DNA of 51,361 nucleotides from a virus. Positions 5,318-51,361 of the stretch are shown piece by piece. Position numbers and translations under genes: made by a program. The DNA is taken from positions 1-51,361 of the IMG/VR virus record IMGVR_UViG_3300032307_000952. One strand, written 5' to 3'. The notes under the pieces are model-generated. The model had not been told where the DNA came from and did no database searches. It saw only the letters and a program-made list of their open reading frames with translations. The first letter of the stretch is position 1. Each line of letters begins with the position of its first letter.

Positions 5318-5333
5318 CTTTTAGAGGTTTGAA

Positions 5334-9798: not shown

Positions 9799-9831
9799 GT
9801 TCACCAAAATTAATAATTTAACATAGAAATG

Positions 9832-9859: not shown

Positions 9860-9862
9860 GTT

Positions 9863-9874
9863 TTGATATATAAT
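9863..9874 (+). promoter_or_regulatory. Promoter-like TTGATATATAAT motif
   Basis: It directly follows a terminator and lies 26 bases ahead of the ATG at 9889. A TTGGAG ribosome site lies between them, so here a short leader with an ordinary ribosome site is expected. Confidence 0.5.
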
Positions 9875-9888
9875 CAGTTGGAGAACTT

Positions 9889-10338: not shown

Positions 10339-10356
10339 TATATGTCAAATCGTAAT

Positions 10357-10379
10357 TAGTAGCAACCTACTATTTTTTT
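10357..10379 (+). terminator. Rho-independent terminator after HTH gene
   Basis: The stem TAGTAG / CTACTA with loop CAAC is followed by seven T residues. The T-run merges into a TTGATATTTATT motif (10378-10389) that may start the next unit. Confidence 0.7.
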
Positions 10380-10389
10380 GATATTTATT
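10378..10389 (+). promoter_or_regulatory. Promoter-like TTGATATTTATT motif
   Basis: The motif begins inside the T-tract of the preceding terminator, 44 bases before the ATG at 10422. It is a weaker match than those at 6400, 9863, 38191 and 47702 but has the same terminator-then-motif arrangement. Another TTGATATATG occurs at 10335 across the end of the HTH gene. Confidence 0.35.
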
Positions 10390-10421
10390 TTAGTTAGAAA
10401 TATATAATTTTGGAGATTTTA

Positions 10422-10919: not shown

Positions 10920-10946
10920 GATCCATTTAAAATAAACAGGAAAAAT

Positions 10947-13276: not shown

Positions 13277-13285
13277 GGAGGGTGA

Positions 13286-14029
13286 ATGTCGGCTGATTAC
13301 TCAAAATTATTAGAACATCCAGATAAAGAAGAAATCATTAGTAAAATAATGACAGGATCTTCTCATAAATCTATTGCTGATTGGCTTAAAATAAAATATT
13401 CATTAAAAGAACAATCTCATTTAAGATTAACTTCAAATTTTTTAAAAGAATTTTCCGATAATAATATTGATTTATTTAATCAATTAAGAAATGATTTATC
13501 AAATGTAAAATCTAGCAATGATAAAATAAATAAAAAAATATCCGAATCTTTATTAAATAATAAAACTTATAAAGAAAGATTAAATGAACTTGCCGATTCC
13601 GAGATTGATATAAAAAGAGTCATTACAGATACTATATTTTTGATACGTGGACGTGTTGAACAAATGTATGATATTGTTCAAAATAATCCAGAAAATACAA
13701 AACCTGATTATGCTTTAATAAAATGGTTTGAAACTTTATTAAATGCAACCGAAAAATATCAAAAGATATATGCTCAACCAGAGGGTTCAGTTATAAATAA
13801 CAATATAACCGTCAATATGATTGAACAACATTCTTCGGTTTTACAAGAAGCCATAAGAGATACTTTGTCGGAAATAGATCCCGAAATTGCTTTCATCTTT
13901 ATGGATAAGCTTGCTAAAAAATTAGCAAAACTAGAAGAACCAACAGATAAATTTGAATCTACCGAAAGAAGATTTGGTGAAGTTAAAGCTTTACAAGATT
14001 CTGTAAAGGAGTTTGAAGATGTTTCTTAA
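13286..14029 (+). CDS. Possible terminase small subunit or DNA-binding packaging protein
   Basis: A 247-residue protein with a strong ribosome site (AAGGAGGGTG). The N-terminus EIISKIMTGSSHKSIADWLK looks like a helix-turn-helix, a long helical middle follows, and the C-terminal half has NITVNMIEQHSSVLQEAI and SEIDPEIAFIF. This order (HTH, coiled coil, C-terminal domain) is seen in small terminase subunits, and terL lies about 6 kb downstream. The assignment is inference. The C-terminal end overlaps the next gene. Confidence 0.45.
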   Translation: MSADYSKLLEHPDKEEIISKIMTGSSHKSIADWLKIKYSLKEQSHLRLTSNFLKEFSDNNIDLFNQLRNDLSNVKSSNDKINKKISESLLNNKTYKERLNELADSEIDIKRVITDTIFLIRGRVEQMYDIVQNNPENTKPDYALIKWFETLLNATEKYQKIYAQPEGSVINNNITVNMIEQHSSVLQEAIRDTLSEIDPEIAFIFMDKLAKKLAKLEEPTDKFESTERRFGEVKALQDSVKEFEDVS

Positions 14030-19588: not shown

Positions 19589-20155
19589 TTGTATTTTGTA
19601 TATTGTATAAGAAATAAAATAAATAATAAATTGTATATAGGTTGGACAACCGATTATAAAGGTAGATGGAAAACTGAAATAAATAGAGCTTTTAATCTTA
19701 ATTCAAGAGAATATCACGTTTTATTATCAAGAGCTTTTAGGAAGTATGCTAAAACAAATAAAGAAGTAAAAGATTATTTTGATTTCTTTGTTTTGGAAGA
19801 GTTTGACAATAAAGAAGAATCTCTTGATGCGGAAGCATTTTGGATCGAATTTTTCCGAACCGATATAACAAGATATGGAGATGCTTATGGTTATAATCAA
19901 CACCATGGAGGTTCTTGCGGAATTCTTGGTTATAAATTCACTCCGGAACAAAAAAAGAAATTGTCTTTGAAAAGAAAAGGGGAAAATAATTCGGCCGCAA
20001 AATTGAATTGGCAAAAAGTTGATGAAATTCGACATAAATATAAAAGTGGCGAATTTTCTCTTGGAACACTATCGAAAGAGTATGAAGTAAGCAAATCTTC
20101 AATAGCAAGGGTAGTTTCAAATAAATATTGGAAAAAGGATGATTATGAGCCTTGA
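19589..20155 (+). CDS. GIY-YIG homing endonuclease
   Basis: A 188-residue enzyme. The N-terminal catalytic module reads YFVYCIRNKINNKLYIGWTT, the GIY-YIG signature in its common YVY/YIG form, and a glutamate-rich helix with AEAFWIEFFRT follows. The C-terminus (LNWQKVDEIRHKYKSGEFSL, then EYEVSKSSIARVV) is a helix-turn-helix DNA-binding module. The frame begins at a TTG preceded by AGAGATGG, so translation is probably weak. It sits just ahead of terL, which carries a mini-intein without its own nuclease, and overlaps the terL start. Confidence 0.85.
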   Translation: MYFVYCIRNKINNKLYIGWTTDYKGRWKTEINRAFNLNSREYHVLLSRAFRKYAKTNKEVKDYFDFFVLEEFDNKEESLDAEAFWIEFFRTDITRYGDAYGYNQHHGGSCGILGYKFTPEQKKKLSLKRKGENNSAAKLNWQKVDEIRHKYKSGEFSLGTLSKEYEVSKSSIARVVSNKYWKKDDYEP

Positions 20156-22397
20156 TATTTTTGAACAATTAAAAAATAATGTTTCCAATATTGATCCAAT
20201 TTTCTTTGTTGAGAAAAATTTAATGTTGGAAGGAGAACCTTTTAAATTAAATGGGAATGGCTACAAGCCGTTTGTGGAAATTTATAGAAAAATCGTGTTA
20301 TCGGCCTCAAACGAAGATTCTAAGCCATTTATATTGGTTAAAGGCCGCCAAATCGGGGGGACAGTGATGGCCGCAGCCCTAGAAGCCTACTTTATGGCAT
20401 CAGGATTATACGGATGCAACGGCAAGCCACCAATAAGAATAATACATGCGTTTCCAAATCTCATACATGTATTTACATATGCGAAGACAAAATTAAATCC
20501 AATCATAAGAGGAGCGCGACCTTATGACAAGCCAATTCGAGGAAAGAAAGTTTCAATATTGGAAGCAAAATTGGATAAGAGTTCCGAATCATCAGATTCT
20601 TTGCAATACAAGCAATTTGAGGGAGGAAACTTTTTAAGAATTGAATCAACGGGATTAGATGCGGACAGATTAAGAGGTGGTACGGTAGATGCAATATTTT
20701 ATGACGAATGTTTTCCATATGATCAATTAATAGAAACGATTGATGGAAAAATAAAAATTGGCGAAATATATGACAAATATATAAATAACGAATCAATACC
20801 TTTGGTAAAGTCTTATAATGAAAATTTAAATATTTTTGAATATAAAAATGTAACAAAAGCTTGGGACAGGGGGAAAAAGAGTTTAGTATCAGTACATTGT
20901 GATGGAATATCATTTTCATGTACAAAAGATCATAAATTTTTAACAGATTCTGGGTGGAGACCAGTATCTAGTATAAATCACAATGGGGTTATAAAAAATT
21001 CAAATAATGAATACTCTGATGTATTATCAATTATAAAATTAAATAAAGAAGAAAGAGTATATGATATAGAAGTTGAAGATAATCATAATTTTGTAATATG
21101 CAATGAAGAGATTGGATTAATAGCGCATAACTGTCAAGACACACCAAAGGTAGCAATACAGAATGCGAACAAGTTATTAACAAAAGCGAAGTATGGTTCA
21201 AGAAGAGGAGGAATTCAAGTTTATTTTGGAACTCCAAAGCAAAGGGGATCATTTTATTATGAATTATGGACAAAATCATCTCAACAATTTTATTATTTAG
21301 GATGTGAAAAGTGTGAAAAACATTTTCCATTATATACACCTGGTTCCAGTGATTGGGAAAAGATATGGCTATACGGATACATAGTTAAATGTGTACATTG
21401 TGGTCATACACAAGATAAGAGAGATGCAGCGGAGCGGGGAAAGTGGGTAGGAACACGGCCCGAAGACGAATGTGAATTGGTAGGATATCATATTAACCAG
21501 ATGTACAATCCAAGAATCACAAGGGAAGATATGGAATATGAAAAGCCGGAAAATCATCCAATCAATACGGAAAGAGCGTGGCAAAACGAAGTATTGGGAG
21601 AGTTTTTTGCTGGTGAGATGGGTCCATTAACTGCCGAGCAAATAGAAGAAAAGTGTGCCGATATAGGCAGACAAATGAGCAGTGGAATAACCTTAGATAA
21701 GGGCAAGAAAGTTTATGTAGGTTTTGACTGGGGAAAGAGAAGTGATGCGGATGCGGTAGGAGCGGCCGAGGCAAAGAAAGCTGGAGGGCAATCATATTCA
21801 ACATGTGTGGTTCTTGTTGAGAATGGACATCAATTATCTATTGAGTATGCAACAATAATAAAGAAAAACGATTTTGAATATAAAAAGAATTTCGTTGATG
21901 AAATTATGAGAAAGTACAGCGTAACGCAGGCAGTAGGAGATATAGGTTATGCAGGAGATTTAAGTGAAGTATTGCATCATAAATATGGCGATAGATTTGT
22001 TACATCAAATTTATTATCAAAAGTAAATGGTTATGCCAAATTTAATGATCAACAAGATCCAAAAGTTATATTGGTTGAAAGAGAGCATTATTTGGAAGAA
22101 TTATTTTCTGTGATGAAGAAAGGATTAATAAGATTTCCTTGGGGAGATTGGGAGAAAATATCTTGGTTAATACAACATTGTACATCAATGGAAGTTAAAA
22201 CAACATTAAATGCGGTTCATGAACCAGTTAGAAGATATGTAAAAGGAAACGGGCCAAACGATGGTTTAATGGCACTCTTAAATGCTTATATAGCTTATAA
22301 ATTTGTTTCAACGAATGGATTTAATCAAGCAAATCCATTATTATATAAAGAAAAGAAAAAGGGTCCAATGGTTGTCACAGGATATTGTCCAAGATGA
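20145..22397 (+). CDS. terL: Terminase large subunit with mini-intein
   Basis: A 750-residue precursor; about 609 residues remain after removal of the intein at residues 189-329. The ATPase part has Walker A GRQIGGT (residues 67-73) and Walker B VDAIFYDE, and the intein lies exactly after that DE so that splicing restores DECQD. A zinc-finger-like pair (CEKC...CVHC) follows, and the C-terminal nuclease domain has VYVGFDWGKRSDAD, AVGDIGYAGD and NDGLMALLNAYIAYKF. This motor cuts and pumps DNA into the prohead through the portal encoded downstream. ATG 20145 is preferred to 20139 because of its spacing from AAAGG. Confidence 0.92.
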   Translation: MSLDIFEQLKNNVSNIDPIFFVEKNLMLEGEPFKLNGNGYKPFVEIYRKIVLSASNEDSKPFILVKGRQIGGTVMAAALEAYFMASGLYGCNGKPPIRIIHAFPNLIHVFTYAKTKLNPIIRGARPYDKPIRGKKVSILEAKLDKSSESSDSLQYKQFEGGNFLRIESTGLDADRLRGGTVDAIFYDECFPYDQLIETIDGKIKIGEIYDKYINNESIPLVKSYNENLNIFEYKNVTKAWDRGKKSLVSVHCDGISFSCTKDHKFLTDSGWRPVSSINHNGVIKNSNNEYSDVLSIIKLNKEERVYDIEVEDNHNFVICNEEIGLIAHNCQDTPKVAIQNANKLLTKAKYGSRRGGIQVYFGTPKQRGSFYYELWTKSSQQFYYLGCEKCEKHFPLYTPGSSDWEKIWLYGYIVKCVHCGHTQDKRDAAERGKWVGTRPEDECELVGYHINQMYNPRITREDMEYEKPENHPINTERAWQNEVLGEFFAGEMGPLTAEQIEEKCADIGRQMSSGITLDKGKKVYVGFDWGKRSDADAVGAAEAKKAGGQSYSTCVVLVENGHQLSIEYATIIKKNDFEYKKNFVDEIMRKYSVTQAVGDIGYAGDLSEVLHHKYGDRFVTSNLLSKVNGYAKFNDQQDPKVILVEREHYLEELFSVMKKGLIRFPWGDWEKISWLIQHCTSMEVKTTLNAVHEPVRRYVKGNGPNDGLMALLNAYIAYKFVSTNGFNQANPLLYKEKKKGPMVVTGYCPR
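20709..21131 (+). mobile_element. Mini-intein in TerL (141 residues)
   Basis: The intein begins with Cys (CFPYDQLIETIDGKIKIGEI, block A), has the block B motif CTKDHKFL with its histidine, block F RVYDIEVEDNHNF and block G GLIAHN. The next extein residue is Cys. There is no room for an endonuclease domain. It interrupts the Walker B motif of the packaging ATPase, so the motor cannot work until splicing occurs. Confidence 0.92.
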
Positions 22398-23098: not shown

Positions 23099-23140
23099 TT
23101 CACTATTATTTTAACATGTTATATATATTTGTGGAGAAAT

Positions 23141-26086
23141 ATGGATAAAAAAGTTATTTTAAAGAAAGGTGAAGGAATTCCAACAATTACAACTGAGACA
23201 TTGAATTCGGTATCTTCTGTAAGAAGAGAAAAGTTGGAACAAGAAATTCAAGAGGGTAAGTTTTTTCACAAGGAATTATCGGCCGAGTTTAAACAAAGAC
23301 CAACATCCGGATTTTCGGCGATGCTAATGAAGAAAGCAAATTATTCAAATGATACGGGGGGAACGGGAGCTGGATGGAGAGGTCCCGGAGGAACAACGAG
23401 GCAAATGCCGGAAGTTTATTCTCCATTATGGTTAAATTCAAATTTAAATCTCCCAAGAGACCGGGCAACGATAAACGCATGGTGCAGATCATTTTTTGCA
23501 TTAAATCCTATTGTTCAAAATGCAATTTCTTTGCATTCAACTTATCCAATTTCTAAACTAAATATAAAATGTAAAGATCCTGAAATAAATCGTTTTTTTG
23601 AAACGATGATTGAGGAGACGGATTTATTAAATGTATGTATTCAAGTTGCGCAAGAATTTTGGACTTTGGGGGAAGCATTTGTTTATGCGGAATTGGATGA
23701 AACAAATGGTAAATGGGGAAGATTGGTTATTCAAAATCCGGATTACATAAATGTTCAAAGAAGCACAATTTCTGGGGAGCCCATAATATCTTTACGACCT
23801 GATGAAAATCTTAAAAGAATTGTTAACGGAAATAAACCATCCGAGATACAACAAAGACAACAATTGGATCGAAATATAATTGAGCATGTTAGAAGGAATG
23901 AAAATATTCCTTTGAGCAATTTTTATGTATCTCATATTCCTAGAAAGATTGCACCTTATGAAATAAGAGGGACTGGATTACCTGTATCTGTATTCCGTCA
24001 GCTTATGCTCTTCGATAAGATTCGCGAGTGTTATTCGGAAGATACAGAAGTTTTAACAAATCTTGGTTATAAAAAAATAAATGAATTATTAGAATTTTGC
24101 CAATTTAAAGAAGGTGATAATTTCCAGGTTGGAACTTGGAAAGATGAGAGTGGTAATTTACATGGAGTTAAATTAAGAGAAGATATTCTTATTGCATGTA
24201 TGAATGCAAAAAATAAAAATATAGAATATCATAAACCAACAAATTTTCATATTTCTGATTATGAAGGAAATATGATGCATTTCATTGGAAAGAAAGTTGA
24301 TATACTCGTTACACCTGAACATGATATGTGGGCAGAAAAATGTGACATCAAAAATTCAAAATATGAAAAGATAAAAGCTCAAGATATGTTGAAAACAAAA
24401 AAGTTTTGGAAATTTCAAACGATGGCAAACCATATTGGGAATGATCCAGAATTTATTGAGGTTTGTGAAAAACAAATTCCAATTGATCTTTATTTAAAAG
24501 TTCTTGGGTACATTGTATCCGAGGGTTGTATTTATTCAAATTATAAAAATGGAAGATATGATTCTTTTATAAGAATAAGTCAATTAACATCTAGTGATGC
24601 CTATGATGATATGAGATCTTCATTTGAAGAGTTTGCTAAAATTTTGGATAAGAATAATAATTCTTATGTTTCTTTATCTGGTTATGGGTTTAGCGAACAT
24701 TGTCCAAAAGAAAAATGGACGGCAACAATTAATGGTAAGAGGATTTGTGAACATTTTATAAATTCAGTTGGGACTGATGTAAACACAAAATCTTTATACA
24801 AAAAACTTCCAAGATGGGTTTTTGATCTTTCGTCTTCGAGAATGGAAATTTTGTTAAATGCATTGGTTAAAGGTGATGGTAATGAATCTTTATCAAAATA
24901 CAATGGAAAATCCAAAAACTTTTATTATTCAACAATTTCTGAACAATTAGCAAATGATGTTTATGAACTTGTTTATAAAACAGGGAAAGCTCCAAATCTT
25001 GGGGTTTATGAAGCAGTTAAATCACATGGAAAACTTGTTAAAGAATTTAGAGTTCTTTGGTCAACAACAAATTATGGAAAAAATCCAACCGTTTGTTCTT
25101 TTAATAAAACTGAAAGAAACAATGGTGGTGGAGCTGTAATTAAAGAAATTCCTTATTCTGGTAAAGTTTGGTGTTTTGAAGTTCCAACTGGATTATTTAT
25201 AACAAGAAGAAATTACAAAACAACAATTCAAGGAAATTGTAAATTTGCTCAAGCTGATAGCATGATAAACCCACTAACTTTAGTTAAAGTTGGTGGCGGA
25301 GCTGACAATTTTAGACCTGGCCCAGAAGATATAAATTTATTAAAAAATACATTTGAAGAAGCATATGCGGATAAGAATTTCAAGATATTTACCCATGATG
25401 CAGTTACGGTTGAACCAATAGGTTTTGGTTCAGGAATTTATGATACATCAGGAGACATTACCCAATTAATAAAAGAAATTTATATAGGTTTGATGGTTCC
25501 TTCTGTTGTTATGGATGGAGGTGGAGATATAACATATGAAAACGGTGGTGTATCTTTGGATGTATTAAGACAAAGATATATGTCATTTAGAAACATGTTA
25601 TCTTCATGGTTAAGAAGAAAAATATTTGCTCCAATATCTAAAATTCATGATTTTTATGAAGTAAAAGATGGAAAGAAAATGCTAATAGTTCCAGAGATAG
25701 AATGGAATCACATGAGCATGTTTGATGTTGGAACTTATGTTGGCAATTTAAATACTTTATTGGGAGCAGAGCCAAGAAAGGTATCATTACATACAGTATA
25801 TAAATCTTTAGGTTTAGAGTATGAAGAAGAAATGAGAAGAATAAGGCAAGAAAATATAGATATAGTTCTTCAAAAGAGAGAGTTAGAAACATTAGATACT
25901 TTGAATTTGTCAGAGTTAAAAACACTAACGGATATATCTGAGTTAAAAGAAAGAAAACAAAAACCAATACCTGGAGAACAAGAAGCTTTACCGGGAGAGG
26001 AAGGTGGAATGCCTGGTATGGATTTAGGAATGCCATCTGGTGATATTGGTTTACCAAGCCAAGCGCCACCTGAACCGCAGCTTTAA
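23141..26086 (+). CDS. Portal protein with LAGLIDADG intein
   Basis: A 981-residue precursor; 578 residues remain after removal of the intein at residues 297-699. The extein contains NLPRDRATINAWCRSFFALN near the N-terminus, FWTLGEAFVYAELDE, and after the intein CKFAQADSMINPLTLVKVG, FGSGIYDTSGDI and VLRQRYMSFRNMLSSWLRRK, the pattern of phage portal proteins. It would form the 12-subunit ring at the head vertex and receive TerL. ATG 23141 with GTGGAG upstream is preferred to a TTG at 23129. The C-terminus is a glycine/proline-rich tail. Confidence 0.88.
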   Translation: MDKKVILKKGEGIPTITTETLNSVSSVRREKLEQEIQEGKFFHKELSAEFKQRPTSGFSAMLMKKANYSNDTGGTGAGWRGPGGTTRQMPEVYSPLWLNSNLNLPRDRATINAWCRSFFALNPIVQNAISLHSTYPISKLNIKCKDPEINRFFETMIEETDLLNVCIQVAQEFWTLGEAFVYAELDETNGKWGRLVIQNPDYINVQRSTISGEPIISLRPDENLKRIVNGNKPSEIQQRQQLDRNIIEHVRRNENIPLSNFYVSHIPRKIAPYEIRGTGLPVSVFRQLMLFDKIRECYSEDTEVLTNLGYKKINELLEFCQFKEGDNFQVGTWKDESGNLHGVKLREDILIACMNAKNKNIEYHKPTNFHISDYEGNMMHFIGKKVDILVTPEHDMWAEKCDIKNSKYEKIKAQDMLKTKKFWKFQTMANHIGNDPEFIEVCEKQIPIDLYLKVLGYIVSEGCIYSNYKNGRYDSFIRISQLTSSDAYDDMRSSFEEFAKILDKNNNSYVSLSGYGFSEHCPKEKWTATINGKRICEHFINSVGTDVNTKSLYKKLPRWVFDLSSSRMEILLNALVKGDGNESLSKYNGKSKNFYYSTISEQLANDVYELVYKTGKAPNLGVYEAVKSHGKLVKEFRVLWSTTNYGKNPTVCSFNKTERNNGGGAVIKEIPYSGKVWCFEVPTGLFITRRNYKTTIQGNCKFAQADSMINPLTLVKVGGGADNFRPGPEDINLLKNTFEEAYADKNFKIFTHDAVTVEPIGFGSGIYDTSGDITQLIKEIYIGLMVPSVVMDGGGDITYENGGVSLDVLRQRYMSFRNMLSSWLRRKIFAPISKIHDFYEVKDGKKMLIVPEIEWNHMSMFDVGTYVGNLNTLLGAEPRKVSLHTVYKSLGLEYEEEMRRIRQENIDIVLQKRELETLDTLNLSELKTLTDISELKERKQKPIPGEQEALPGEEGGMPGMDLGMPSGDIGLPSQAPPEPQL
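24029..25237 (+). mobile_element. LAGLIDADG intein in portal protein (403 residues)
   Basis: The intein starts with CYSEDTEVLTNLGYKKINEL, has block B-like ILVTPEHDMW, two LAGLIDADG-type motifs (LKVLGYIVSEG and LLNALVKGDG), a block F-like region KVWCFEVPTGLFI, and ends TIQGN followed by extein Cys. The penultimate residue is Gly rather than the usual His. The endonuclease would cut intein-free portal alleles. Confidence 0.9.
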
Positions 26087-31714: not shown

Positions 31715-31879
31715 ATGATAATAAAAAGAAGTAGTAGCAAAATAAATGTAATTAAAGATCAAATCTTATTTGATAAAGATTTGCCACAAATAAAAGAAAA
31801 AAATGTTTTTGAAATATATGAGTCTTTAAACCCAAAGGCTTCTTTAAAGGATAAAAATGATAATCAAAAAAGCGAATAA
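31715..31879 (+). CDS. Small hypothetical protein (54 residues)
   Basis: A short reading frame with AAGGTG seven bases ahead of ATG 31715. It encodes a charged peptide beginning MIIKRSSSKINVIKDQ and ends inside the protease gene, overlapping it by 23 bases. It fills the only gap between the helical protein and the protease gene, and both start and stop positions look like a real coupled gene. The function is unknown. Confidence 0.5.
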   Translation: MIIKRSSSKINVIKDQILFDKDLPQIKEKNVFEIYESLNPKASLKDKNDNQKSE

Positions 31880-34800
31880 TAATATTACTTCAGATTGCAT
31901 TAAATCTACAGCAACAGATCAAGATGATCCAGAAATATTACATTATTTCAAGAAAACCGCTGCTGATTTAAAAGCTATCGCTCCAAGAGCAAAAGATTTC
32001 TTATATTTCACAACCATTATGATGCATGCTGCCGAAGCTTCTGCCCTTGATGATAATGGGGAAATTAAAAAAACGGCAAAAGGTGAACCGGTTTCGGTTG
32101 GTTGGGATGTTCTTGATAATGGTGCTTGGGTTTGGAAATCTAATGATCCAAATGTAAGACCATACAAGAATAACAATTGCATGTTAGCAGGTACATCAAT
32201 ATTAATGGGGGATGGATCTGTTAAAAATATTGAAGATATTTCTGTTGGAGATGAAGTATTTACACATAAAGGTAATGTAAAAAAAGTAACAAACACCTTT
32301 GTTCATGAAAATAATTCTTATATTTTTAATATAAAAACAAAATATCATCCACAGATATCTCTTACTTCTGAGCATCCCGTTTTTGCAATTTCTGATGAAA
32401 AAATACGAAAACAAAAACTTAAGAATATTAACCAAAATATTGATTGGGTAGAGACAAAGAATATATCAGCTGGAGATTTCCTAACATCATTTAGAAATAT
32501 CAATGTAAAAGAGGATTCTTCAATAAACCCAAATCAAGCAAGATTATTAGGTTTATTTGCTGCCGAAGGTTCTTTTTCTAAAAAATATGGCAAATTACAA
32601 TCTGCAGTATTTACTTTTGGTATCAAAGAAAAATATTTAGCAGATTTAGTAAAAAATATTGTCGAAGAAGAGTTTCCAGAATGCTCTTTATCTATTAGAG
32701 AATCGGAAATACGAAGTGTAATTTCCGTTGTTTTAACTGGCAAAGGTGTTCCAGATTGGTTTTATTATCACGTTGGAGAATATAGCCATTCTAAAAAACT
32801 AAGTAAAGAATTAGTATTTTCTTCACAAGAAACAAAAAGACAATTTATAATGGGTTGGATGGAAGGTGATGGTTGTATTACCGAAGGTAATAAGCTTGTA
32901 GGAATAACTTCTTCCAAAGATATGGCTTGGCAAATATGGTTAATGTCAAAAAATATAGGTTTAACATTAGCTATAAGAAAAGTAGAAGGTAAAGGAAAAA
33001 AAATAACAATAAATAAAAATTATAAGCCCTACAACGTTAGAGATAGTTATAGATTAGAAATCTATGGCGCTAATGCCGAATTGCTCTGCAAAAATGATAG
33101 TGTAAAATATAAATTAAAAACACTAAAGAATCATAAATCAATTGATATTACTAGAGAAGATTATACTATTCATCGTGTAAAAGAAGTAGAAATGAAACCT
33201 TATGAGGGTAAGGTTTATAACTTTGAAGTTGAAGATGACCATTCATATGTAGCAAACGGCTTAATAGTGCACAACTCAGATATATTCCCAGAATCTGAAC
33301 TTATAAAAGCTCATAAAAACTGGGTAGGTAAACCCCTTTGTTTGGACCATCAATCTCAATCCGTTGATCATGTTCGAGGTATTATTGTTGATACCGTGTA
33401 TGATCATAAAGGAAAAAGAATAATTGCTCTCTGCGCAATTGATAAAATCAATTACCCAGATTTAGCAAGAAAGGTTGCTTCAGGTTATGCAACTTCTGTG
33501 TCAATGGGTACTGCCGTTGAACGTGCTATTTGTACAGAAGCAGGTTGTCACGCTGTAGCCAGATACGAACATGAATTCTGTACCCATATGAAAACAAAAT
33601 CATGTTATGGAGAAATAAATGTTGGTTTAAATCCAATTGAATTATCAATTGTTGTAAATCCAGCAGACCCAAGAGCAAAGATTCGAAGAGTAATAGCTTC
33701 ATCAAATGCTTTAGCTGAGTATATAGATAAGAAAGCGGATACAGAAGAAGATTATAGTGAAGAAGAAGTTAGCAAATTAAAATCTGAAGTTGAAGAATTA
33801 TCAGAGGAACTTGATAAAATTAAAGAAGAAGCAAAATCTTTAGAGGAAGAAATATCCGAAATGAAAGATGAGGCGGATAAAGATATTAGTAAAGAAGATG
33901 ATAAAAATGAAGAATCCGAAGAAAAAAAAGATGAAATGAAAGCTTCGGATGGTGATAATTTATCATTAAATAAAGAAAGTGATATAAAATGGACGCATGG
34001 TTTAAATAACAAAGTCGTTTTATTGCAAGAAAAGTTAAGTTATATAAATAATTATATTTCAAAGATCGGATTACAAAAAGGACATAACGAGGAACAAAAC
34101 ATGACAAAAAAAGAAGCATATTTTCTAGGTGGCGGTGGAGTTAATGAACCAACTCCAAAACAAGCAAAATATCCTAAAGAAGATGCCGATTCAATTCGTA
34201 ATCAGGATAAACAAATGGTTGGTCAAATGAACACCGGACCTGTCGATGGTATGCACCCTGGTTATGAATCTTTCGGTGAATCTGAGGAAGCAAGAAAGAA
34301 AAGATTACAAAGAATGGCAGCTGAAAAAGAACAAAGAAAACTTCGAAGAGAAGCAGCAGTTCAATTAGCTAAAGAAGCTCTTGCAAAACGCAAAGAAGCA
34401 TATTTTCTAGGTGGTGGCGGAGTCAATGAACCAACCCCAGGAAAGCCAAAATACGAAAAAGAAGATTCTGATTCAATTCGTAACACAAAAGATAAACAAA
34501 TGGTAGGAGCAGCACCATTTCCAAATACAGGGCCAGTTGATGGTTTATTCCCTGGAGATCTTGAGAAGAAAGAAAAAGTTTCTCGTGCAGAAAATTTAAG
34601 CGGCAGATTTGTCAAAGCATCAAAAGCTGATGGTTCGGACGATCTTGGTGCATCAAGATGGGACATTTATGTTAAGCAAGCCGGATCTGATAAGAGATCA
34701 TTAGTTCTTTCAGCAACAGTTGCAGAACTTGCTGGCGATAAGGTTCAAGCTCTTTATCCAGCAATTGCTACAGAGGAATATGGTAAGAAAATAATTTCCA

Positions 34801-36533
34801 CAATCAGAACTGCTGGTTTAGAAGTTGCTAAGGGTATATTTAAAGGTGCTCAAACTGTTCCAGCAATTCCTGCCGGGCCAGTTGCTCAAGAAGATCTTAC
34901 TCAAAAAGCAGCTCCAGTTGAATTTGAGGAAAAAGTTGAAGATGTTGATTATTCCGGAGAAACCGGTGAATCTTCTGATCAATTAAAAGATCTAGTTCAT
35001 GAATTGGGTAATTTACATTCAGACTTGGAAAAAGCAGTTGATGCATTAGAAGAAGAAGGCGCAGCTGATACAGTTGAACTTCCAATGGCTACAGCAAGCG
35101 TATCTGTTGAAGATATTGGTAAAACATTAAAAGTAGCTCTTTTAAAAGAAATGAAGAAATCAATTGCTTCAATTGAAGAAGTTGTTGACGAACTTAAATT
35201 AATTAAAGAAGTTGGCGGAAGCAAACTTGATAATAAAACTGCTTCTGTATTCTCTAAGGTTGTAAAAGATTCTCTTTCTGATGCAAAAGAAGCAAAAGAA
35301 AGAGCTTATAGAAATCTTGCTTCGTTTGTTAGATATGCAAAAGGCGTTGAAGCTCTTAAAAAGAAAGCTCAAATCAGTCCTCTTGATGTAGCTCATTCGG
35401 TTGCAGAAGATGCAAGTTTTGCAAATTCAACGGTCGCTGATTGGGTAATTGATCGTGGTACTGGTAAATTCGAGCCACTTAATCAAGGTGAATTCTTACT
35501 TTTGAAGTCTGGTAAACCACTCCCTGCAGGATGGGAAGTTAAATCTGTTGGCGATTCAGCTTTTGCAGATGATAAGAAATCAGTTGGCGAAAAAGTTGTT
35601 CAAGACGTAGAAGGTGAATCCGGTTACAAAGGTGATCGAGAAAAACATCAAGAACAAGATAAAGCTAACGAAGCAAAAGATACCAAAAAATATAACAAGC
35701 CAGATTACAAAAAAGAAAAACTTGTAGATTTTGGTAATGCATATGACGAAAATGATCTTAAGATGAACGAAGACGGTTCAGTTGAAGGTTCAGCAAAAGA
35801 TATAGCTGAGGTTCTTAAGTCTGCATCCAAAGAAGAAAGAGCTGCTTTAAGAATTGCTCTTGCTCAAAAAGGCGTACAATTCTCAGATGTTCTAAAAGCT
35901 CACAAAGGTGGAGTCAAAACAAAACTTGATGTAAAAGTAACTGGTGATCTTGATAAAGTTGAGACTCTAGAAGAGCAACATGCAAAAATGTTAGAAGTTG
36001 CAGAGCAAAAAGTTCCTTCAAAAGTTAGACTTGCTGCAGAAAAGATTGAAACTCTAGTTAAGGCAGGAGAAATCAATCCAAATAAAGATTTCCCAGGTTT
36101 AATTGCTGAGGGTCTTGATGCAGCAGCAGTTGCATATTGGAAGAAATATTTTGCAGAAGCAAAAGATCCAGCATCTACCCAATTCGTTTCAGATCTTGTA
36201 AAAGATTTTAACAAGAAAAAAGCATCGGCATCAGAAGATGCTGGTAAAGTAAAAATTGCAAGAGCTTATGAAGCGGCTTATTCAATGGCAGAAAGAGGAA
36301 TAATTGGTAGAGATCCAGCCTCATTACGTCAACAAGCAGAGAAACTTTTAAGTTATTCTGATGAGAATTTTGAACACTTCACTTCAACATTATCAAGAAT
36401 TCAACCAAAGAAAGCATCAACTGTAGAGGTTGGTATTCATGATTCGGTTCTAGATTCAATCGAAGTTCCTTCAGGAAAATCAGAAAACTTAACTGAATTA
36501 TTCAGCTCTGCATTCTCTGGTCGTAAATACTAA
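31857..36533 (+). CDS. Prohead protease fused to scaffold-like region, with intein
   Basis: A 1558-residue precursor; 1192 residues remain after removal of the intein at residues 108-473. The protease domain follows the intein: GKPLCLDHQSQSVDHVRGI with His498, and GYATSVSMGTAVER with serine candidates S547/S549, like the His/Ser prohead proteases of T4 gp21 type. Next come CTEAGC...EFCTHMKTKSC, an acidic coiled coil (about 640-700), two glycine-rich direct repeats (about 752 and 846), and a long alanine/lysine/glutamate-rich helical region. This is the layout of a protease joined to a capsid core or scaffold protein. An in-frame internal start at 34101 has an excellent ribosome site. Confidence 0.8.
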   Translation: MIIKKANNNITSDCIKSTATDQDDPEILHYFKKTAADLKAIAPRAKDFLYFTTIMMHAAEASALDDNGEIKKTAKGEPVSVGWDVLDNGAWVWKSNDPNVRPYKNNNCMLAGTSILMGDGSVKNIEDISVGDEVFTHKGNVKKVTNTFVHENNSYIFNIKTKYHPQISLTSEHPVFAISDEKIRKQKLKNINQNIDWVETKNISAGDFLTSFRNINVKEDSSINPNQARLLGLFAAEGSFSKKYGKLQSAVFTFGIKEKYLADLVKNIVEEEFPECSLSIRESEIRSVISVVLTGKGVPDWFYYHVGEYSHSKKLSKELVFSSQETKRQFIMGWMEGDGCITEGNKLVGITSSKDMAWQIWLMSKNIGLTLAIRKVEGKGKKITINKNYKPYNVRDSYRLEIYGANAELLCKNDSVKYKLKTLKNHKSIDITREDYTIHRVKEVEMKPYEGKVYNFEVEDDHSYVANGLIVHNSDIFPESELIKAHKNWVGKPLCLDHQSQSVDHVRGIIVDTVYDHKGKRIIALCAIDKINYPDLARKVASGYATSVSMGTAVERAICTEAGCHAVARYEHEFCTHMKTKSCYGEINVGLNPIELSIVVNPADPRAKIRRVIASSNALAEYIDKKADTEEDYSEEEVSKLKSEVEELSEELDKIKEEAKSLEEEISEMKDEADKDISKEDDKNEESEEKKDEMKASDGDNLSLNKESDIKWTHGLNNKVVLLQEKLSYINNYISKIGLQKGHNEEQNMTKKEAYFLGGGGVNEPTPKQAKYPKEDADSIRNQDKQMVGQMNTGPVDGMHPGYESFGESEEARKKRLQRMAAEKEQRKLRREAAVQLAKEALAKRKEAYFLGGGGVNEPTPGKPKYEKEDSDSIRNTKDKQMVGAAPFPNTGPVDGLFPGDLEKKEKVSRAENLSGRFVKASKADGSDDLGASRWDIYVKQAGSDKRSLVLSATVAELAGDKVQALYPAIATEEYGKKIISTIRTAGLEVAKGIFKGAQTVPAIPAGPVAQEDLTQKAAPVEFEEKVEDVDYSGETGESSDQLKDLVHELGNLHSDLEKAVDALEEEGAADTVELPMATASVSVEDIGKTLKVALLKEMKKSIASIEEVVDELKLIKEVGGSKLDNKTASVFSKVVKDSLSDAKEAKERAYRNLASFVRYAKGVEALKKKAQISPLDVAHSVAEDASFANSTVADWVIDRGTGKFEPLNQGEFLLLKSGKPLPAGWEVKSVGDSAFADDKKSVGEKVVQDVEGESGYKGDREKHQEQDKANEAKDTKKYNKPDYKKEKLVDFGNAYDENDLKMNEDGSVEGSAKDIAEVLKSASKEERAALRIALAQKGVQFSDVLKAHKGGVKTKLDVKVTGDLDKVETLEEQHAKMLEVAEQKVPSKVRLAAEKIETLVKAGEINPNKDFPGLIAEGLDAAAVAYWKKYFAEAKDPASTQFVSDLVKDFNKKKASASEDAGKVKIARAYEAAYSMAERGIIGRDPASLRQQAEKLLSYSDENFEHFTSTLSRIQPKKASTVEVGIHDSVLDSIEVPSGKSENLTELFSSAFSGRKY
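32178..33275 (+). mobile_element. LAGLIDADG intein in prohead protease (366 residues)
   Basis: It begins CMLAGTSILMGDGSVKNIED (block A), has block B SLTSEHPVFAI, two endonuclease motifs (ARLLGLFAAEG and FIMGWMEGDG), block F KVYNFEVEDDHSYVA and block G LIVHN. The first downstream extein residue is Ser, unlike the Cys of the two other inteins. It lies before the protease catalytic residues, so protease assembly would depend on splicing. Confidence 0.92.
34089..34103 (+). promoter_or_regulatory. Internal ribosome binding site and in-frame ATG
   Basis: GAGGA at 34089-34093 stands seven bases ahead of ATG 34101, which is in frame at codon 749 of the protease/scaffold gene. Translation from here would give an 810-residue scaffold-like protein without the protease, comparable to the Nu3 start inside lambda gene C. 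The site is visible; its use is inferred. Confidence 0.6.
34110..34565 (+). repeat. In-frame direct repeat, two copies about 282 bases apart
   Basis: Copies begin at 34110 and 34392. Both encode KEAYFLGGGGVNEPTP, then a DSIRN...DKQMVG segment and NTGPVDGM/L followed by PG. The DNA is nearly identical over the first 45-50 bases. A basic helical linker separates them. They start right after the internal start codon and may be cleavage or assembly motifs of the scaffold region. Confidence 0.8.
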
Positions 36534-45719: not shown

Positions 45720-45749
45720 GGGACGGTGGGTTTCTCACCGTCCCCTTTT
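45720..45749 (+). terminator. Rho-independent terminator between decoration and capsid genes
   Basis: The stem GGGACGGTG pairs with CACCGTCCC, loop of seven bases, then CTTTTT. The capsid gene must be reached by read-through or by a start site between 45750 and 45807. Confidence 0.9.
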
Positions 45750-45806
45750 TCAAACACAATTAATTTTAATCCTTTAATGCAAAGGATAATCGGAGTAAAT
45801 AAAAAT

Positions 45807-46802
45807 ATGTCTATATTCAATTCAAAAGGCGAACTTAACGCTTCTTCAATGCAAGATGTTCAAATTCAACTTGCTAAAATTGCTTCTTTCCTAGATAGCA
45901 ATAATCCTTCTAACATTGCTCTTGCTGGGCAATCAAGTCTCTCCGCAGAAAAAAGAGACCAACTCGTAGAAAGAGCTATAATGTCACAAGAAGGCAAAAT
46001 TGCTCTTGCTCAAGCAATGGCTAACCCAATCCGAAGAAACTTGGATTACCAAGGTATGGCACGAAGAGCTTTAGTTGTAGATCCACTTCCACAAGCCGCT
46101 CTACCAGTATACGACAGAGATATTGATGTCGCTGCTGTTGTTGTTTCTTCAAATGGTACCGGTCCAGAAAGCCGAGTTTTCGGGGATCGAGTTACTGTTC
46201 CTGAATTTGAGATTTTCTCAAATCCAACCGTAAGAATTGCTGAAGTTAAAAGACGTAGATTCAATGTAATTGACCGTGCTGTTCAAAAAGCTCGTCAAGA
46301 AATCATGGCTCAAGAAGACGCTAACGTTTTTGCTGCAATTGATACTGCTTCTACTGTTGAAAATACAGAACAAACAGTTACTGCTGGCGGAACAACTAGA
46401 GGAGATCTTCTTGCTCTTAAGAAACAAGTTGATCGTTGGGACCTTGTTACAACCAAATATTTCATGAATATCAATGAATACACCGATATCCTCGCTTGGG
46501 GTTCTGGTGGTGGTCAAGGGCCAACCGGTGGTGATTTTGATCCAGTTACAATGCGTGAAGTTCTACAAACAGGTCTTTATGCTCATATCTGGGGCGCTGA
46601 TATAATGGTAAGTAAGATTGTACCTACTGGCACCATATATGCTGCTGCTGATCCTGAGTTTGTTGGTGTAATGCCTGTAAGACAAGAAATTGAGGTACTT
46701 CCTGCTGACGAACCAAAACAACTCCGACTTGGTTGGGTGGTTTCTGAAATTATAGGTATTGGTATCGTGAACCCAAGAGGCGTTGCAAAAGGCACCAAGT
46801 AA
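45807..46802 (+). CDS. Major capsid protein (HK97-fold)
   Basis: A 331-residue protein. ATG 45807 with CGGAG 10 bases ahead is chosen over an open GTG at 45726 that lies inside the terminator stem. Typical parts are an N-terminal helical stretch, the long E-loop/P-domain region (VPEFEIFSNPTVRIAEVKRR), VIDRAVQKARQEIMAQEDAN (spine helix), DRWDLVTTKYFMNINEYTDI, and the C-terminal IWGADIMVSKIVPTGTIYAA ... VMPVRQEIEVLPAD. Codon use is less AT-rich than average, fitting heavy expression. It builds the icosahedral head on the scaffold and is probably trimmed by the protease encoded upstream. Confidence 0.88.
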   Translation: MSIFNSKGELNASSMQDVQIQLAKIASFLDSNNPSNIALAGQSSLSAEKRDQLVERAIMSQEGKIALAQAMANPIRRNLDYQGMARRALVVDPLPQAALPVYDRDIDVAAVVVSSNGTGPESRVFGDRVTVPEFEIFSNPTVRIAEVKRRRFNVIDRAVQKARQEIMAQEDANVFAAIDTASTVENTEQTVTAGGTTRGDLLALKKQVDRWDLVTTKYFMNINEYTDILAWGSGGGQGPTGGDFDPVTMREVLQTGLYAHIWGADIMVSKIVPTGTIYAAADPEFVGVMPVRQEIEVLPADEPKQLRLGWVVSEIIGIGIVNPRGVAKGTK

Positions 46803-46847: not shown

Positions 46848-46879
46848 AAAAAGAGATGATCGAAAGGTCATCTCTTTTT
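46848..46879 (+). terminator. Rho-independent terminator after major capsid gene
   Basis: AAAAAGAGATGATC pairs with GGTCATCTCTTTTT (one G-U pair) around a GAAA loop, ending in a T-run. It lies 45 bases past the capsid stop, and its T-run touches the GTG start of the next frame. Confidence 0.9.
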
Positions 46880-46881: not shown

Positions 46882-47622
46882 GTGCATATAAAATACAAAA
46901 AAAACGAATCTTATTTTGATATTATTGATGACCCAACCAAATCATATTGGTTGGGTTTTTTATTTGCTGACGGTTATAATTCAAATAAATCTATAATATT
47001 GGATTTATCAAGAAAAGACAATGATCATTTATTAAAGTTTTCAAAATTAATATTTGGATGTGATAATATAAAAAAATATGAAAGAAGAGGCATTGAATTT
47101 TCAAGATTAGAAATACATTCAAAGAAAATGTGTGAATCATTATCAAAACTTGGTTGTGTAAAAAACAAGACAAAAAAATTAGATTTTCCTAAAATTGAAA
47201 AAAAGTATATTAGAGATTTTTTAAGGGGTTACTTTGATGGAGACGGATCAATATATCAAACAAAAGCACCAACGAGATCTAATTACGCAAAATTTACATC
47301 ATCAAAATCATTTATATATGAAATAAAATCCGAATTAGAATCTAATTTAGATGATGTTTCTTATTTTATAGAAGATGAATCTGAGGAAATAAAAAGTTTA
47401 AAGATAATTGGCGATCCATCAATATTAAAGTTATACTTTTATTTATATGAAGATTCTTTATATTTTTTGGAAAGGAAAAAAGATAAATTTGAAAGTATAA
47501 TAAGTGATATTGATGAAAAAATTAAGAAAACAATAAAAGGAACAAGAGGTTATCCAAAGATATACTTAAAAAAATATGAATGGTATATTAATACAAAATA
47601 TATTTCAAATATAGAAAGATGA
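46882..47622 (+). CDS. LAGLIDADG homing endonuclease
   Basis: A 246-residue free-standing enzyme with two LAGLIDADG motifs, YWLGFLFADGYNSNKSIILD near residue 22 and FLRGYFDGDGSIY near residue 113, plus the usual second-domain strands. The first possible start is the GTG at 46882, placed at the end of the capsid terminator with no ribosome site, so expression needs read-through and is probably weak. It is neighbour to the capsid gene, a typical conserved target. Confidence 0.8.
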   Translation: MHIKYKKNESYFDIIDDPTKSYWLGFLFADGYNSNKSIILDLSRKDNDHLLKFSKLIFGCDNIKKYERRGIEFSRLEIHSKKMCESLSKLGCVKNKTKKLDFPKIEKKYIRDFLRGYFDGDGSIYQTKAPTRSNYAKFTSSKSFIYEIKSELESNLDDVSYFIEDESEEIKSLKIIGDPSILKLYFYLYEDSLYFLERKKDKFESIISDIDEKIKKTIKGTRGYPKIYLKKYEWYINTKYISNIER

Positions 47623-47624
47623 AT

Positions 47625-47705
47625 ATGAGTTTTGAAAAAATAAAAGAAATGTACGAAAATGGATTTGCTGCAAAAAGAATTTCTATTTCAGTAAAAAATA
47701 ATTGA
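47625..47705 (+). pseudogene. Small HTH-like remnant
   Basis: A 26-residue frame, MSFEKIKEMYENGFAAKRIS ... followed by six more residues. It reads like the first helices of the helix-turn-helix modules that end many homing endonucleases. It starts three bases past the endonuclease stop and ends inside the motif ahead of cas1. It could be a degraded C-terminal domain or a chance frame. Confidence 0.35.
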
Positions 47706-47718: not shown

Positions 47719-48651
47719 ATGAATATAGAAAAGAGACCTGAATTAAAATCGATATTACATTCAAAAAGAGCCAATATATTTTATTTGCAACATTGTAAAG
47801 TTATGCAAAAAACTGGAAGAGTTCTTTATTTAACAAAGAATGATAATAAAAACTTATATTATAATATACCAATAGCAAATACAACATGTATATTGTTAGG
47901 AAACGGAACATCTATAACTCAAGCTGCAACAAAAATATTGGCTAAAGCTGGTGTAATGATAGGTTTTTGTGGTGGAGGCGGAACTCCTTTAATTTCAGCT
48001 CAAGAAGTTGAATGGATCTCCCCACAATCAGAATATAGACCAACAAAATATTTACAAAGATGGGTTAAATTTTGGTTTGATGATAACAAAAGATTTGTTG
48101 CAGCAAAAACAATACAGCAAAAAAGAATAGATTATATAAGAAAAATATATTCTTGTGATAAATTTTTATATGATAATAATATCTTTTTAAGAGATTATAT
48201 TGATGTTATAAATGAGTTTGAAAAAAACATAAATAAATCGGAAAATATAAATAAACTATTATCATACGAAGGTTTATTTACTAAAAAACTATATAGTATA
48301 ATTTCTGAAAAAACAAATATTGATTTTAAAAGAAATTATAAATGTAAAGACTCCGCTAACGAAAAACTAAATCATGGAAATTATCTTGCTTATGGTTTGG
48401 CGGCAAGTTCAACTTGGGTATTAGGTATACCTCATAGCTTAGCCGTACTGCATGGCAAAACAAGAAGAGGTGGTCTCGTTTTCGACATTGCAGATCTTGT
48501 GAAAGATGCTATAGTGCTCCCGTTGTCATTCATTTGTGCTTCTAATGAATTTACAGAATCTGACTTTAGAAAATATTGCTTACAATCATTTATTAGAAAC
48601 AAATCATTAGATTATATGTTTGACGTAATAAAAGAGATTTCAGAAATATGA
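47719..48651 (+). CDS. cas1: Type I-F CRISPR integrase Cas1
   Basis: A 310-residue Cas1 of the I-F group. Diagnostic parts are LKSILHSKRANIFYLQHCKV near the N-terminus, NIPIANTTCILLGNGTSITQ, IGFCGGGGTPLISAQEVEW and SPQSEYRPTKYLQRWVKFWF. The metal-binding catalytic residues are present: E184 in SYEGLFTKKLY, H245 in AVLHGKTRR, and D256/D259 in VFDIADLVKD. Cas1 inserts new spacers into CRISPR arrays in a complex with Cas2-3. The stop overlaps the next start by four bases. It is intact, so spacer acquisition may be active. Confidence 0.95.
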   Translation: MNIEKRPELKSILHSKRANIFYLQHCKVMQKTGRVLYLTKNDNKNLYYNIPIANTTCILLGNGTSITQAATKILAKAGVMIGFCGGGGTPLISAQEVEWISPQSEYRPTKYLQRWVKFWFDDNKRFVAAKTIQQKRIDYIRKIYSCDKFLYDNNIFLRDYIDVINEFEKNINKSENINKLLSYEGLFTKKLYSIISEKTNIDFKRNYKCKDSANEKLNHGNYLAYGLAASSTWVLGIPHSLAVLHGKTRRGGLVFDIADLVKDAIVLPLSFICASNEFTESDFRKYCLQSFIRNKSLDYMFDVIKEISEI

Positions 48652-49781
48652 TTGTAACATTCATTTCAAGATGTAACGGTAAGGCAATAAATAAAACTAG
48701 AGAAATATTGGATGCGTTTGCAATAAGAATAGGAGATTTTACTTGGCAAACGGCAATAACCCAAGAAGGTCTTGATGCGGTTTACTTATCTCTTAAAAAG
48801 AGTGCTTGTAAAAATACGGCAGTCTCTTGCCACAAAATAAAAGGAAAACAAATAACAGAAGTTATTTGGATTGTTGGATCAAAGTTAAAATTTAATTTAA
48901 ATGGAGAGTGTCCAGTAAATTACACTCAGAAAGATTTTGTTTTGGATTATTTAGATGAAAACATAAAACATATATACGCAAACTCTCATGGTCAAAACTT
49001 ATCAGAGCATTTATTTGCGGTTGGATTTCTATCATTATTGATTATTAATAACTTAGGAATTAAAGAAGAAAATATTAAAGAATGTTCATTTTTATCCGGT
49101 GCATTGCATGATATTGGAAAAGTAGATTATGCGTTTCAAAAATTTATTAAAAAAAATATTAAAAATATAGATACTCCAGTAGATTCATTAGAGGATGGAT
49201 CTCACATAGAAGATGGTTCAAAAGTTGATGGTAAGAAATTTTCTTTTGAAACACACCCTAGACATAATGAAATATCTTTAGTTTTATCTGAGTCTTATTT
49301 GAATAATACAAAAAAAGAATATGACGATCATATTTACCATTCAATTTTATATCATCATATGAAAGTTCTTAGAAAAGATCAATTTGATAAAAGAAAAGTT
49401 TTTAATGCAATAAAGAAAGAATGTGAAAGCATAGATGAACTATATTCTTTAGGTCAAAATGTAATTGGTGGAGTTCAAAGGATATGCGAATCTTACAATA
49501 AAAAAGGTTTGTTAAAAGATAATCTTTATAAAAGAATTACAAATATAAACAAAAATATAATAATACCTCCTGAAGGTAAAAATAAATCTAATTTTGACAC
49601 TTACAAAAATTATTATGAGTGCAAAGATGATATTGATAAAATAAAATCAAAAATAAAACAAAATTCAATTAACAATATATTAAGGTCAGTATTAATTTCA
49701 AGTGATAGGAAAATATCTAGAGAATCAGCTTCTGATCTTTCTGAAAGAATAAAAAACAACGAATTTGAGGATTTATTATGA
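48648..49781 (+). CDS. Cas2 fused to HD nuclease domain, without helicase
   Basis: A 377-residue protein equal to the N-terminal part of type I-F Cas2-3. Residues about 1-95 are the Cas2 domain: MIVTFISRCNGKAINKTREI, then RIGDFTWQTAITQEGLDAVY and AVSCHKIKGKQITEVIWIVG. Residues about 105-330 hold the HD nuclease: H121, GALHDIGK with H154-D155, H206 in RHNEIS, and H236/H237 in ILYHHMKV, so the metal ligands look complete. The frame ends after the HD part, where I-F Cas2-3 would continue into the helicase. The stop overlaps the next start (ATGA). It would act in adaptation and DNA degradation. Confidence 0.92.
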   Translation: MIVTFISRCNGKAINKTREILDAFAIRIGDFTWQTAITQEGLDAVYLSLKKSACKNTAVSCHKIKGKQITEVIWIVGSKLKFNLNGECPVNYTQKDFVLDYLDENIKHIYANSHGQNLSEHLFAVGFLSLLIINNLGIKEENIKECSFLSGALHDIGKVDYAFQKFIKKNIKNIDTPVDSLEDGSHIEDGSKVDGKKFSFETHPRHNEISLVLSESYLNNTKKEYDDHIYHSILYHHMKVLRKDQFDKRKVFNAIKKECESIDELYSLGQNVIGGVQRICESYNKKGLLKDNLYKRITNINKNIIIPPEGKNKSNFDTYKNYYECKDDIDKIKSKIKQNSINNILRSVLISSDRKISRESASDLSERIKNNEFEDLL

Positions 49782-51361
49782 ATAATCTAAAACAAGATAT
49801 AAAAAAATGTATTGATAATTTTAAATTAAAATATGGGGATTCTGAAAGGAATGCAAAGCAATCTATTGCTGCTGAAAATTTATTTAATGTAAAAAACAAC
49901 CAAAATTCTGATAATGACATTTGTGTTCTACAAGGTCCAGCCGGATGCGGTAAGACAAAAATATCATTAGAGTGGGCATTAAACTCAGATGCAAATAAAA
50001 TAATATGGGTATGCCCTAGAGTACAAGTTTGTATGAGTATATTTATGGAATTATCTAGCTCTGATTATCTTAATTATTCTAAGATAGAAATATTTACTGG
50101 TGATGATAAAAGAATATTTGAATCTGGCGAAATACATGAAACTCAGGAAGATGAGAAATTTTCTGGTGATATTGTAATTACCACAATAGACCAAATTGTA
50201 AATAAAATTACAACGCACAGGGATGTAGATTCTCTAGTTGAGTTTATGGAATCCCATGTTATATTTGATGAATTTCATGAATTAATAAATGTTAATCCTC
50301 ATAATATATTATTTATGGAACTTATTGAAAGTAAGAAACGCTTGGGGAGAAACAGCAATACCTTGTTACTATCAGCAACTCCAAATTATTTATTTTGTAA
50401 AAAGTTTTTAGATATTGATGACAGAAATATTATTAAAGTTGAAACTTTCAATCAATCAAAATATAAAATAAATATCATAGAATATGATGATGATAAAATA
50501 AACCCAATGATTACTTCTACAATAGAAGGAAATTCAATTGTAATATTTAATACTGCAACTGACTCTCAATTTTCTTTTATAAAAAATATGAAAAAAGAGA
50601 ATTCAATTCTGTTTCATTCAAAATTTTCTCTAAAAGATAGAATTGATATTTTCAATAAAACATATTCATCTTTTAAAAAAAATGGAAGTAGAGAGTTTGA
50701 AGTATTAAGATCTGGACCTTTAGTTGAGGCAAGTTTAAACATAACTTGCGATAAAATGTATACACAAATACATTCAGCTGAGCATATATTGCAAAGAATT
50801 GGACGCTTAGACAGGTTTGGGGAAAATAATTTTATAAATGAAATGAATATATATATTCCATTATCATTAACTGAAAACAAACAAAAAACAGGAGATGCAA
50901 AATTTCTAAATTCTTTAAATGAAAAAAATTCCGCTTATGCTTTTTATAAATTTTTAAAATTAAAAAGCATAGATGGTAAAGAAATATATTTAAAAGATTT
51001 GTATCAAATATACGAAGGTTTGTATAATGATTCTGCAAGCATTGAATTAATTAAAAAAGATATAATAAATTCTTTAAATAAGTCAATAGATAAAGCTGAT
51101 GAATTACTTGATTCGCCTATTGGTTTTCCAATTAAAAATAAAAAACAAAATAAATCAAAAAAGATAAGTAAAAAATCATTAAGAGGCGAAAATTATTTCA
51201 TTAATATGTCCGTACGTATTTGTGATGAAAACTTTAATTTAACAGATAGTGGAAAATATTGCGTTCCATTACCAGAATATTGTGATGATTTTTATGAAGA
51301 AGAGGAATTCAATATGGATTGTTTAACTGGAAATCCAAACGATGATGAGATAAATCAAATG
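49778..51361 (+). CDS. Cas3 helicase as a separate protein, 3'-truncated by window edge
   Basis: An open frame of 528 codons that runs off the window. Superfamily 2 helicase motifs are in order: Walker A GPAGCGKT (residues 53-60), DEFH box (D164-H167), SAT motif LLLSATPNY (S199-T201), and motif VI QRIGRLDR (339-346). There is no HD domain; that part is encoded by the upstream gene, whose stop overlaps this ATG. It would unwind target DNA marked by the Csy complex and pass it to the HD nuclease. csy1-csy4 and CRISPR arrays are expected downstream, outside the window. Confidence 0.9.
   Translation, partial: MNNLKQDIKKCIDNFKLKYGDSERNAKQSIAAENLFNVKNNQNSDNDICVLQGPAGCGKTKISLEWALNSDANKIIWVCPRVQVCMSIFMELSSSDYLNYSKIEIFTGDDKRIFESGEIHETQEDEKFSGDIVITTIDQIVNKITTHRDVDSLVEFMESHVIFDEFHELINVNPHNILFMELIESKKRLGRNSNTLLLSATPNYLFCKKFLDIDDRNIIKVETFNQSKYKINIIEYDDDKINPMITSTIEGNSIVIFNTATDSQFSFIKNMKKENSILFHSKFSLKDRIDIFNKTYSSFKKNGSREFEVLRSGPLVEASLNITCDKMYTQIHSAEHILQRIGRLDRFGENNFINEMNIYIPLSLTENKQKTGDAKFLNSLNEKNSAYAFYKFLKLKSIDGKEIYLKDLYQIYEGLYNDSASIELIKKDIINSLNKSIDKADELLDSPIGFPIKNKKQNKSKKISKKSLRGENYFINMSVRICDENFNLTDSGKYCVPLPEYCDDFYEEEEFNMDCLTGNPNDDEINQM

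Follow-up and report, generated by a model that had tools for sequence, protein, structure and literature searches.

Three cas genes close a 51,361-bp linear viral record in IMG/VR (IMGVR_UViG_3300032307_000952, a fragment; the whole stretch is called the window below), raising the question of whether they belong to the phage whose capsid gene they follow, and whether they form part of a system capable of adaptation; most phage CRISPR systems lack Cas1 and Cas2 (PMC7162821, PMC12676247, PMC11656645). The + strand holds all major ORFs of the window, whose hallmark genes encode a UvsX-like recombinase, a primase, a single-strand binding protein, a terminase, a portal, a baseplate-type lytic protein, a head protease and an HK97-fold major capsid protein. 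IMG/VR contains 362 relatives of the capsid protein, which are at best 75-82% identical and lie on contigs of up to 481 kb; the protein also shares 53% identity with gp27, the capsid protein of Bacillus phage G. The capsid flank is assignable by homology to a huge-phage lineage, and the window probably represents about a tenth of a huge-phage genome.

Several further features were seen elsewhere in the window. Genes for the terminase (20139-22397) and head protease (31857-36533) carry inteins, as indicated by Intein_splicing matches, and the portal gene (23129-26086) is unusually long. The fold of a 138-nt intergenic stretch (5196-5333) has inner hairpins closed by a terminal stem of 17 bp (z-score -3.75, with no shuffle equally stable); an Rfam search returned no match for this fold or for anything else in the window. 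Diverged direct repeats are common to two distant parts of the phage (1-545 and 8011-8258), with a 69-bp tandem repeat at 279-449. These repeats are not CRISPR arrays, none of which was found within the window.

The sequence-only reading had placed cas1, a Cas2-HD gene and a Cas3 helicase gene after the capsid region on the coding strand, and all three ORFs are present there, with cas1 starting 917 bp downstream of the capsid stop (Table 1). Neighbouring cas ORFs overlap by 4 bp and the three genes form one operon, which the contig end at 51361 interrupts inside cas3.

Table 1. Features between the capsid gene and the contig end, with positions in the window.
Feature	Position	Strand	Evidence
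Major capsid protein (HK97 fold)	45726..46802	+	NCBIfam NF042927 1.4e-59; PHROG 2522 1.5e-77
Intrinsic terminator 3' of capsid gene	46848..46879		Stem-loop and T run
LAGLIDADG homing endonuclease	46882..47622	+	PF14528 7.7e-06; PHROG 4645 endonuclease 2.8e-47
28-codon remnant of another phage endonuclease in this family (N-terminal part)	47619..47705	+	MSFEKIKEMYENGFAAKRIS
TTGATATAT, putative phage promoter motif, 8 bp 5' of cas1 start codon	47702..47710	+	
cas1, I-F2 type, 310 aa	47719..48651	+	PADLOC Cas1fv 8.1e-145 vs Cas1f 6.1e-128
cas2-HD, 377 aa	48648..49781	+	PF21384 1.1e-31; TIGR01596 1.1e-13; PADLOC Cas3fv positions 1-359
GAGG, Shine-Dalgarno-like site, 7 nt 5' of helicase ATG	49767..49770	+	Direct sequence
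cas3 helicase, separate gene, 528 aa up to contig end	49778..51361	+	PADLOC Cas3fv positions 367-844 of 951, 4e-179

Cas1 scored 479.9 bits with the Cas1fv model versus 424.6 with Cas1f (Pfam 9e-17; NCBIfam cas1_YPEST 2e-127), the Cas2-HD protein comprises an I-F Cas2 domain (aa 1-98) and a Cas3 HD nuclease domain (aa ~112-360), and the helicase ORF matched cas3_core at 6e-35. As had been claimed, the catalytic residues of Cas1 and HD and the helicase motifs are intact: the Cas1 metal ligands E184, H245, D256 and D259 (assigned by homology), the HD motifs H121, H154/D155 and H236/H237, and the helicase motifs GPAGCGKT, DEFHE, SATP and QRIGRLDR are all present. Judged against invariance among 17 cellular I-F2 proteins, 126 of 152 invariant columns are kept in Cas1 and 163 of 196 in Cas2-3, those lost falling outside the catalytic motifs. 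The intact cas1 and Cas2 domain agree with the adaptation capacity proposed earlier, which the system would be predicted to have.

Because Cas1fv and Cas3fv are the best models, with Cas3fv spanning both ORFs in order, the subtype is assigned as I-F2 (I-Fv) and not the Csy1-4 type. The helicase is 42-50% identical to I-F2 Cas3 proteins of plasmids and chromosomes, and the closest complete I-F2 operons read cas1-cas2/3-cas7fv-cas5fv-cas6f. In a tblastn search, the helicase matched neither the I-F1 loci that Cas1 had led to nor any of 50,697 phage records, ICP1 included. The full-length cas3_yersinia model matched the Cas2 part only, and an I-F1 (Csy) assignment was dropped on finding that the window helicase is not an I-F1-type Cas3 helicase domain. 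The type I-F call of the sequence-only reading therefore stands at the level of type, while its expectation of csy1-csy4 gives way to cas7fv, cas5fv and cas6f, as I-F2 predicts, so that a missing csy1 downstream would not count against the system. I-F2 is uncommon: within one proteobacterial class its helicase was found in 4 of 369 genomes, and within one order in 37 of 301.

The trees against ICP1 and chromosomal I-F systems that had been proposed agree with this placement. The window Cas1 falls, on a long branch, within a set that holds all 20 I-F2 Cas1 proteins as well as five I-F1 proteins; its highest identity in the tree is 61%, and the Cas1 of ICP1 lies far away. In the helicase tree, the window forms the deepest branch beside all cellular I-F2 proteins and that of one phage contig, L139 (support 96/79, midpoint root). 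Used as a single query, Cas1 found no relative in IMG/VR. The long branches, together with codon usage like that of the phage, suggest that the cas operon has resided in phages for a long time.

Relatives have Cas2, HD and helicase joined in a single chain of ~970-1006 aa, and the three are fused in all complete cellular I-F2 loci examined. In the window, Cas2 and HD domains share one gene and the helicase occupies another, although all three domains are best matched by Cas3fv. The earlier reading had recognised both genes and passed over the split. A single-base sequencing or assembly error in a normal fused Cas2-3 gene could produce such an arrangement, given that a one-base change just 5' of the ATGA in which the cas2-HD stop and helicase start overlap would join the frames, and that frameshifted I-F2 cas3 genes occur in draft genomes (G515 and G671, for example). 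However, only about 10 bp out of some 2,700 would allow such an error, those from the in-frame stop at 49766, which closes the helicase frame 12 nt 5' of its ATG, to that ATG at 49778, and the error would have to break the protein exactly at the HD/helicase linker, most of which is itself gone, while providing a start codon with GAGG 7 nt upstream. We therefore consider this explanation very unlikely, and the ATGA overlap, the GAGG site, the in-frame stop and the position of the break argue that the split is real, a chance sequencing error being unlikely. In the open-access literature searched, of which coverage was incomplete, we found no report of a split Cas2-HD/Cas3.

Among 35 relatives, the site 3' of the capsid gene varies: some have nothing there, others have LAGLIDADG endonucleases, a CCA-adding-like gene or different genes, and the same conserved gene comes after it in 32 of the 35 loci. 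This lineage has a cargo site behind its capsid gene. In the window it holds a LAGLIDADG endonuclease whose relatives are endonucleases sited behind the capsid gene in related phages, and which lacks their N-terminal DNA-binding part (the alignment begins at about residue 55-130 of theirs). Behind it, MSFEKIKEMYENGFAAKRIS matches the endonuclease N-termini in L009, L022, L025 and L007 (30.8 bits versus a best of 25.2 in 200 shuffles), and this remnant stops 14 bp 5' of cas1.

The motif TTGATATAT before cas1 occurs 10 times in the window versus 2.2 expected, and in upstream regions across the lineage it was found 11 times on the gene strand and never on the opposite strand; these statistics make it a candidate phage promoter element. 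Intergenic copies lie immediately 5' of genes at window positions 6400, 9863, 38191 and 47702. A sigma-70 promoter scan gave no clear excess over shuffles. From the codon usage described below, the variable site with its endonuclease remnant, and TTGATATAT ahead of cas1, it is most likely that the cas operon came into the cargo site and took the place of most of an endonuclease gene.

Host DNA joined to the phage contig, or an assembly chimera, could also place cas genes at the end of a viral record. Several IMG/VR contigs with I-F cas genes do have host-type loci, such as a Mu-like prophage between cas1 and cas2-3, and the insertion is unique to this contig: Cas1 was absent from 48 related records and Cas3fv from 16, many of these records being fragments. 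In contrast, ordering by how far codon usage departs from the phage mean puts the cas genes at ranks 15, 16 and 5 among 32 phage genes; their GC3 is 0.16 versus 0.17 for the phage, while Legionella and Acinetobacter I-F2 genes are far off phage codon usage. The coding strand runs unbroken into the cas genes, which share it with the terminase, portal, primase and UvsX genes, and no bacterial housekeeping gene appeared among the window proteins searched. Codon usage, the endonuclease gene and the fragment of a second one preceding cas1, and the same-strand hallmarks thus place the cas genes inside the phage genome and not on a host flank. The chimeric join that the sequence-only reading had allowed for is very unlikely, given the codon usage, the conserved surroundings of the capsid gene and how close to cas1 the phage endonuclease sequence reaches, and the reading's proposal of phage-borne I-F-type cas genes is borne out.

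Whether the phage carries a complete system bears on the part past the contig end, where we predict cas7fv, cas5fv, cas6f and an array of 28-nt I-F repeats; because these would lie beyond the window, expression, activity, function and targets are what we infer. An exact IMG/VR search with the last 43 bases of the window found no overlapping contig. The phage might instead keep only cas1, cas2-HD and the helicase, either using a host effector and arrays or carrying a decaying locus. Most phage CRISPR systems are incomplete (PMC7162821, PMC12676247), and the downstream half is just the part that the contig lacks, but partial phage systems are usually without adaptation genes, as in L139 and L140, whereas here these genes are intact, the three frames stay open amid stop-rich DNA and the motifs are kept. 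A partial or defective locus is accordingly improbable in our judgement.

Taken as a whole, the window likely ends in the 5' half of a genuine, intact I-F2 CRISPR-Cas operon in a huge tailed phage genome, where it occupies a cargo site flanked by the capsid gene and the conserved genes usually found next. The nearest cellular counterparts are the I-F2 systems of Legionella longbeachae plasmid pB1445CHC_73K and Acinetobacter plasmid pANC7924.1, whose Cas1 is about 56%, Cas2-HD 42% and helicase 41-47% identical and whose gene order is the same as far as visible; their Cas2-3 is fused in one gene, whereas in the window it is divided over two genes, which lie near the capsid gene of a huge phage. 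Vibrio phage ICP1 likewise carries a phage-borne I-F system with cas1 and cas2 among structural genes. However, the ICP1 system is I-F1, with csy1-4 and a fused Cas2-3, its Cas1 is about 40% identical and its genome is unrelated to the window, in keeping with the earlier remark that the gene set looked different.

L139 (a 363-kb viral contig, IMGVR_UViG_3300021514_000002) has a terminase gene and, at 9179-14947, a complete effector operon of the window's I-F2 subtype, cas3, cas7fv, cas5fv and cas6f, with an array of nine 28-nt repeats; unlike the window, it lacks cas1 and a Cas2 domain, keeps HD and helicase fused, does not match the capsid model and forms a separate branch in the Cas3 tree. 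Its array yielded no convincing protospacer in phage records. A 149-kb viral contig, L140, carries at 9230-15702 a divergent cas3, a cas7-like gene, two genes at the expected cas5/cas6 places and an array of >20 repeats, with no cas1 detected. In scans for Cas7fv, Cas2-HD and I-F repeats, L139 gave the only clear I-F2 effector, most other contigs looked at bearing I-F1-type genes or locus ends, and none of 56 viral stretches with I-F repeats carried the searched capsid-region genes of the window's lineage. The 732 I-F spacers of the fetched loci gave only partial matches of 16-18 nt to the window and its relatives, which we took as chance.

Two other kinds of record came up in these comparisons. 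In L141 and L199 (IMGVR_UViG_3300021518_000048), a bacterial type I-F locus appears to have a Mu-like prophage between its cas1 and cas2-3 and is probably disrupted by it. The best phage match, 'Acinetobacter phage MD-2021a' (L134, CAKLQH020000006.1), was rejected, its flanks being bacterial housekeeping genes; the stretch read shows an I-F1 CRISPR locus among bacterial chromosomal genes, and the phage label looks wrong.

As in the window, CRISPR-Cas systems have been described in very large phage genomes, where almost all lack Cas1, Cas2 and Cas4 and where type I-F goes unmentioned in the main text (PMC7162821); a later survey found 250 of 299 phage systems without Cas1, Cas2 and Cas4, and I-F among the commonest phage subtypes (PMC12676247). 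A phage-borne I-F system is not new as such. Two things are unusual here: a huge phage has adaptation genes, and its Cas2-3 is split exactly at the HD/helicase linker, the helicase having a ribosome-binding site of its own. The open-access literature searched, with incomplete coverage, held no report of I-F2 in a huge phage.

During infection, the operon would be transcribed on the phage coding strand, probably from the candidate phage promoter TTGATATAT directly 5' of cas1. Cas1 and the Cas2 domain would act as an integrase adding spacers to the phage-borne array, and Cas6f would make crRNA for loading into a Cas7fv/Cas5fv complex, which would recruit the HD nuclease on the Cas2-HD protein and the helicase as a separate subunit. 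Rival DNA would then be destroyed, for example that of a satellite, co-infecting phage, plasmid or host defence island. With Cas2 and HD on one chain and the helicase on another, nuclease and integrase would remain linked while the helicase could assemble separately. An adapting I-F2 system used against competitors is the most likely role.

In ICP1, the CRISPR locus alternates with the nuclease gene Odn (PMC11656645), and a homing endonuclease of another jumbo phage harms a co-infecting rival (PMC11620839). The site behind the capsid gene, where the window has cas genes and many relatives have endonucleases, would fit this pattern. We tentatively suggest, with some doubt, a complete self-adapting I-F2 system in a huge phage, its Cas2-3 re-cut into Cas2-HD and a free helicase so that spacer capture and DNA unwinding would no longer share a chain, at a site where relatives have homing endonucleases, perhaps swapping one DNA-cutting weapon against rivals for a programmable one.

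The phage whose adapting CRISPR system has been studied experimentally is ICP1. If our interpretation is true, the window would be a second, unrelated case, of a different subtype and in a huge phage, and viruses would have acquired full adaptive immunity on more than one occasion. The split between Cas2-HD and helicase would offer a natural test of why type I-F fuses Cas2 and Cas3, the cargo site predicts where more such systems may sit, and the array, once obtained, would show the phage's enemies directly. The presence of cas1 means that the virus may be able to record and attack new rivals.
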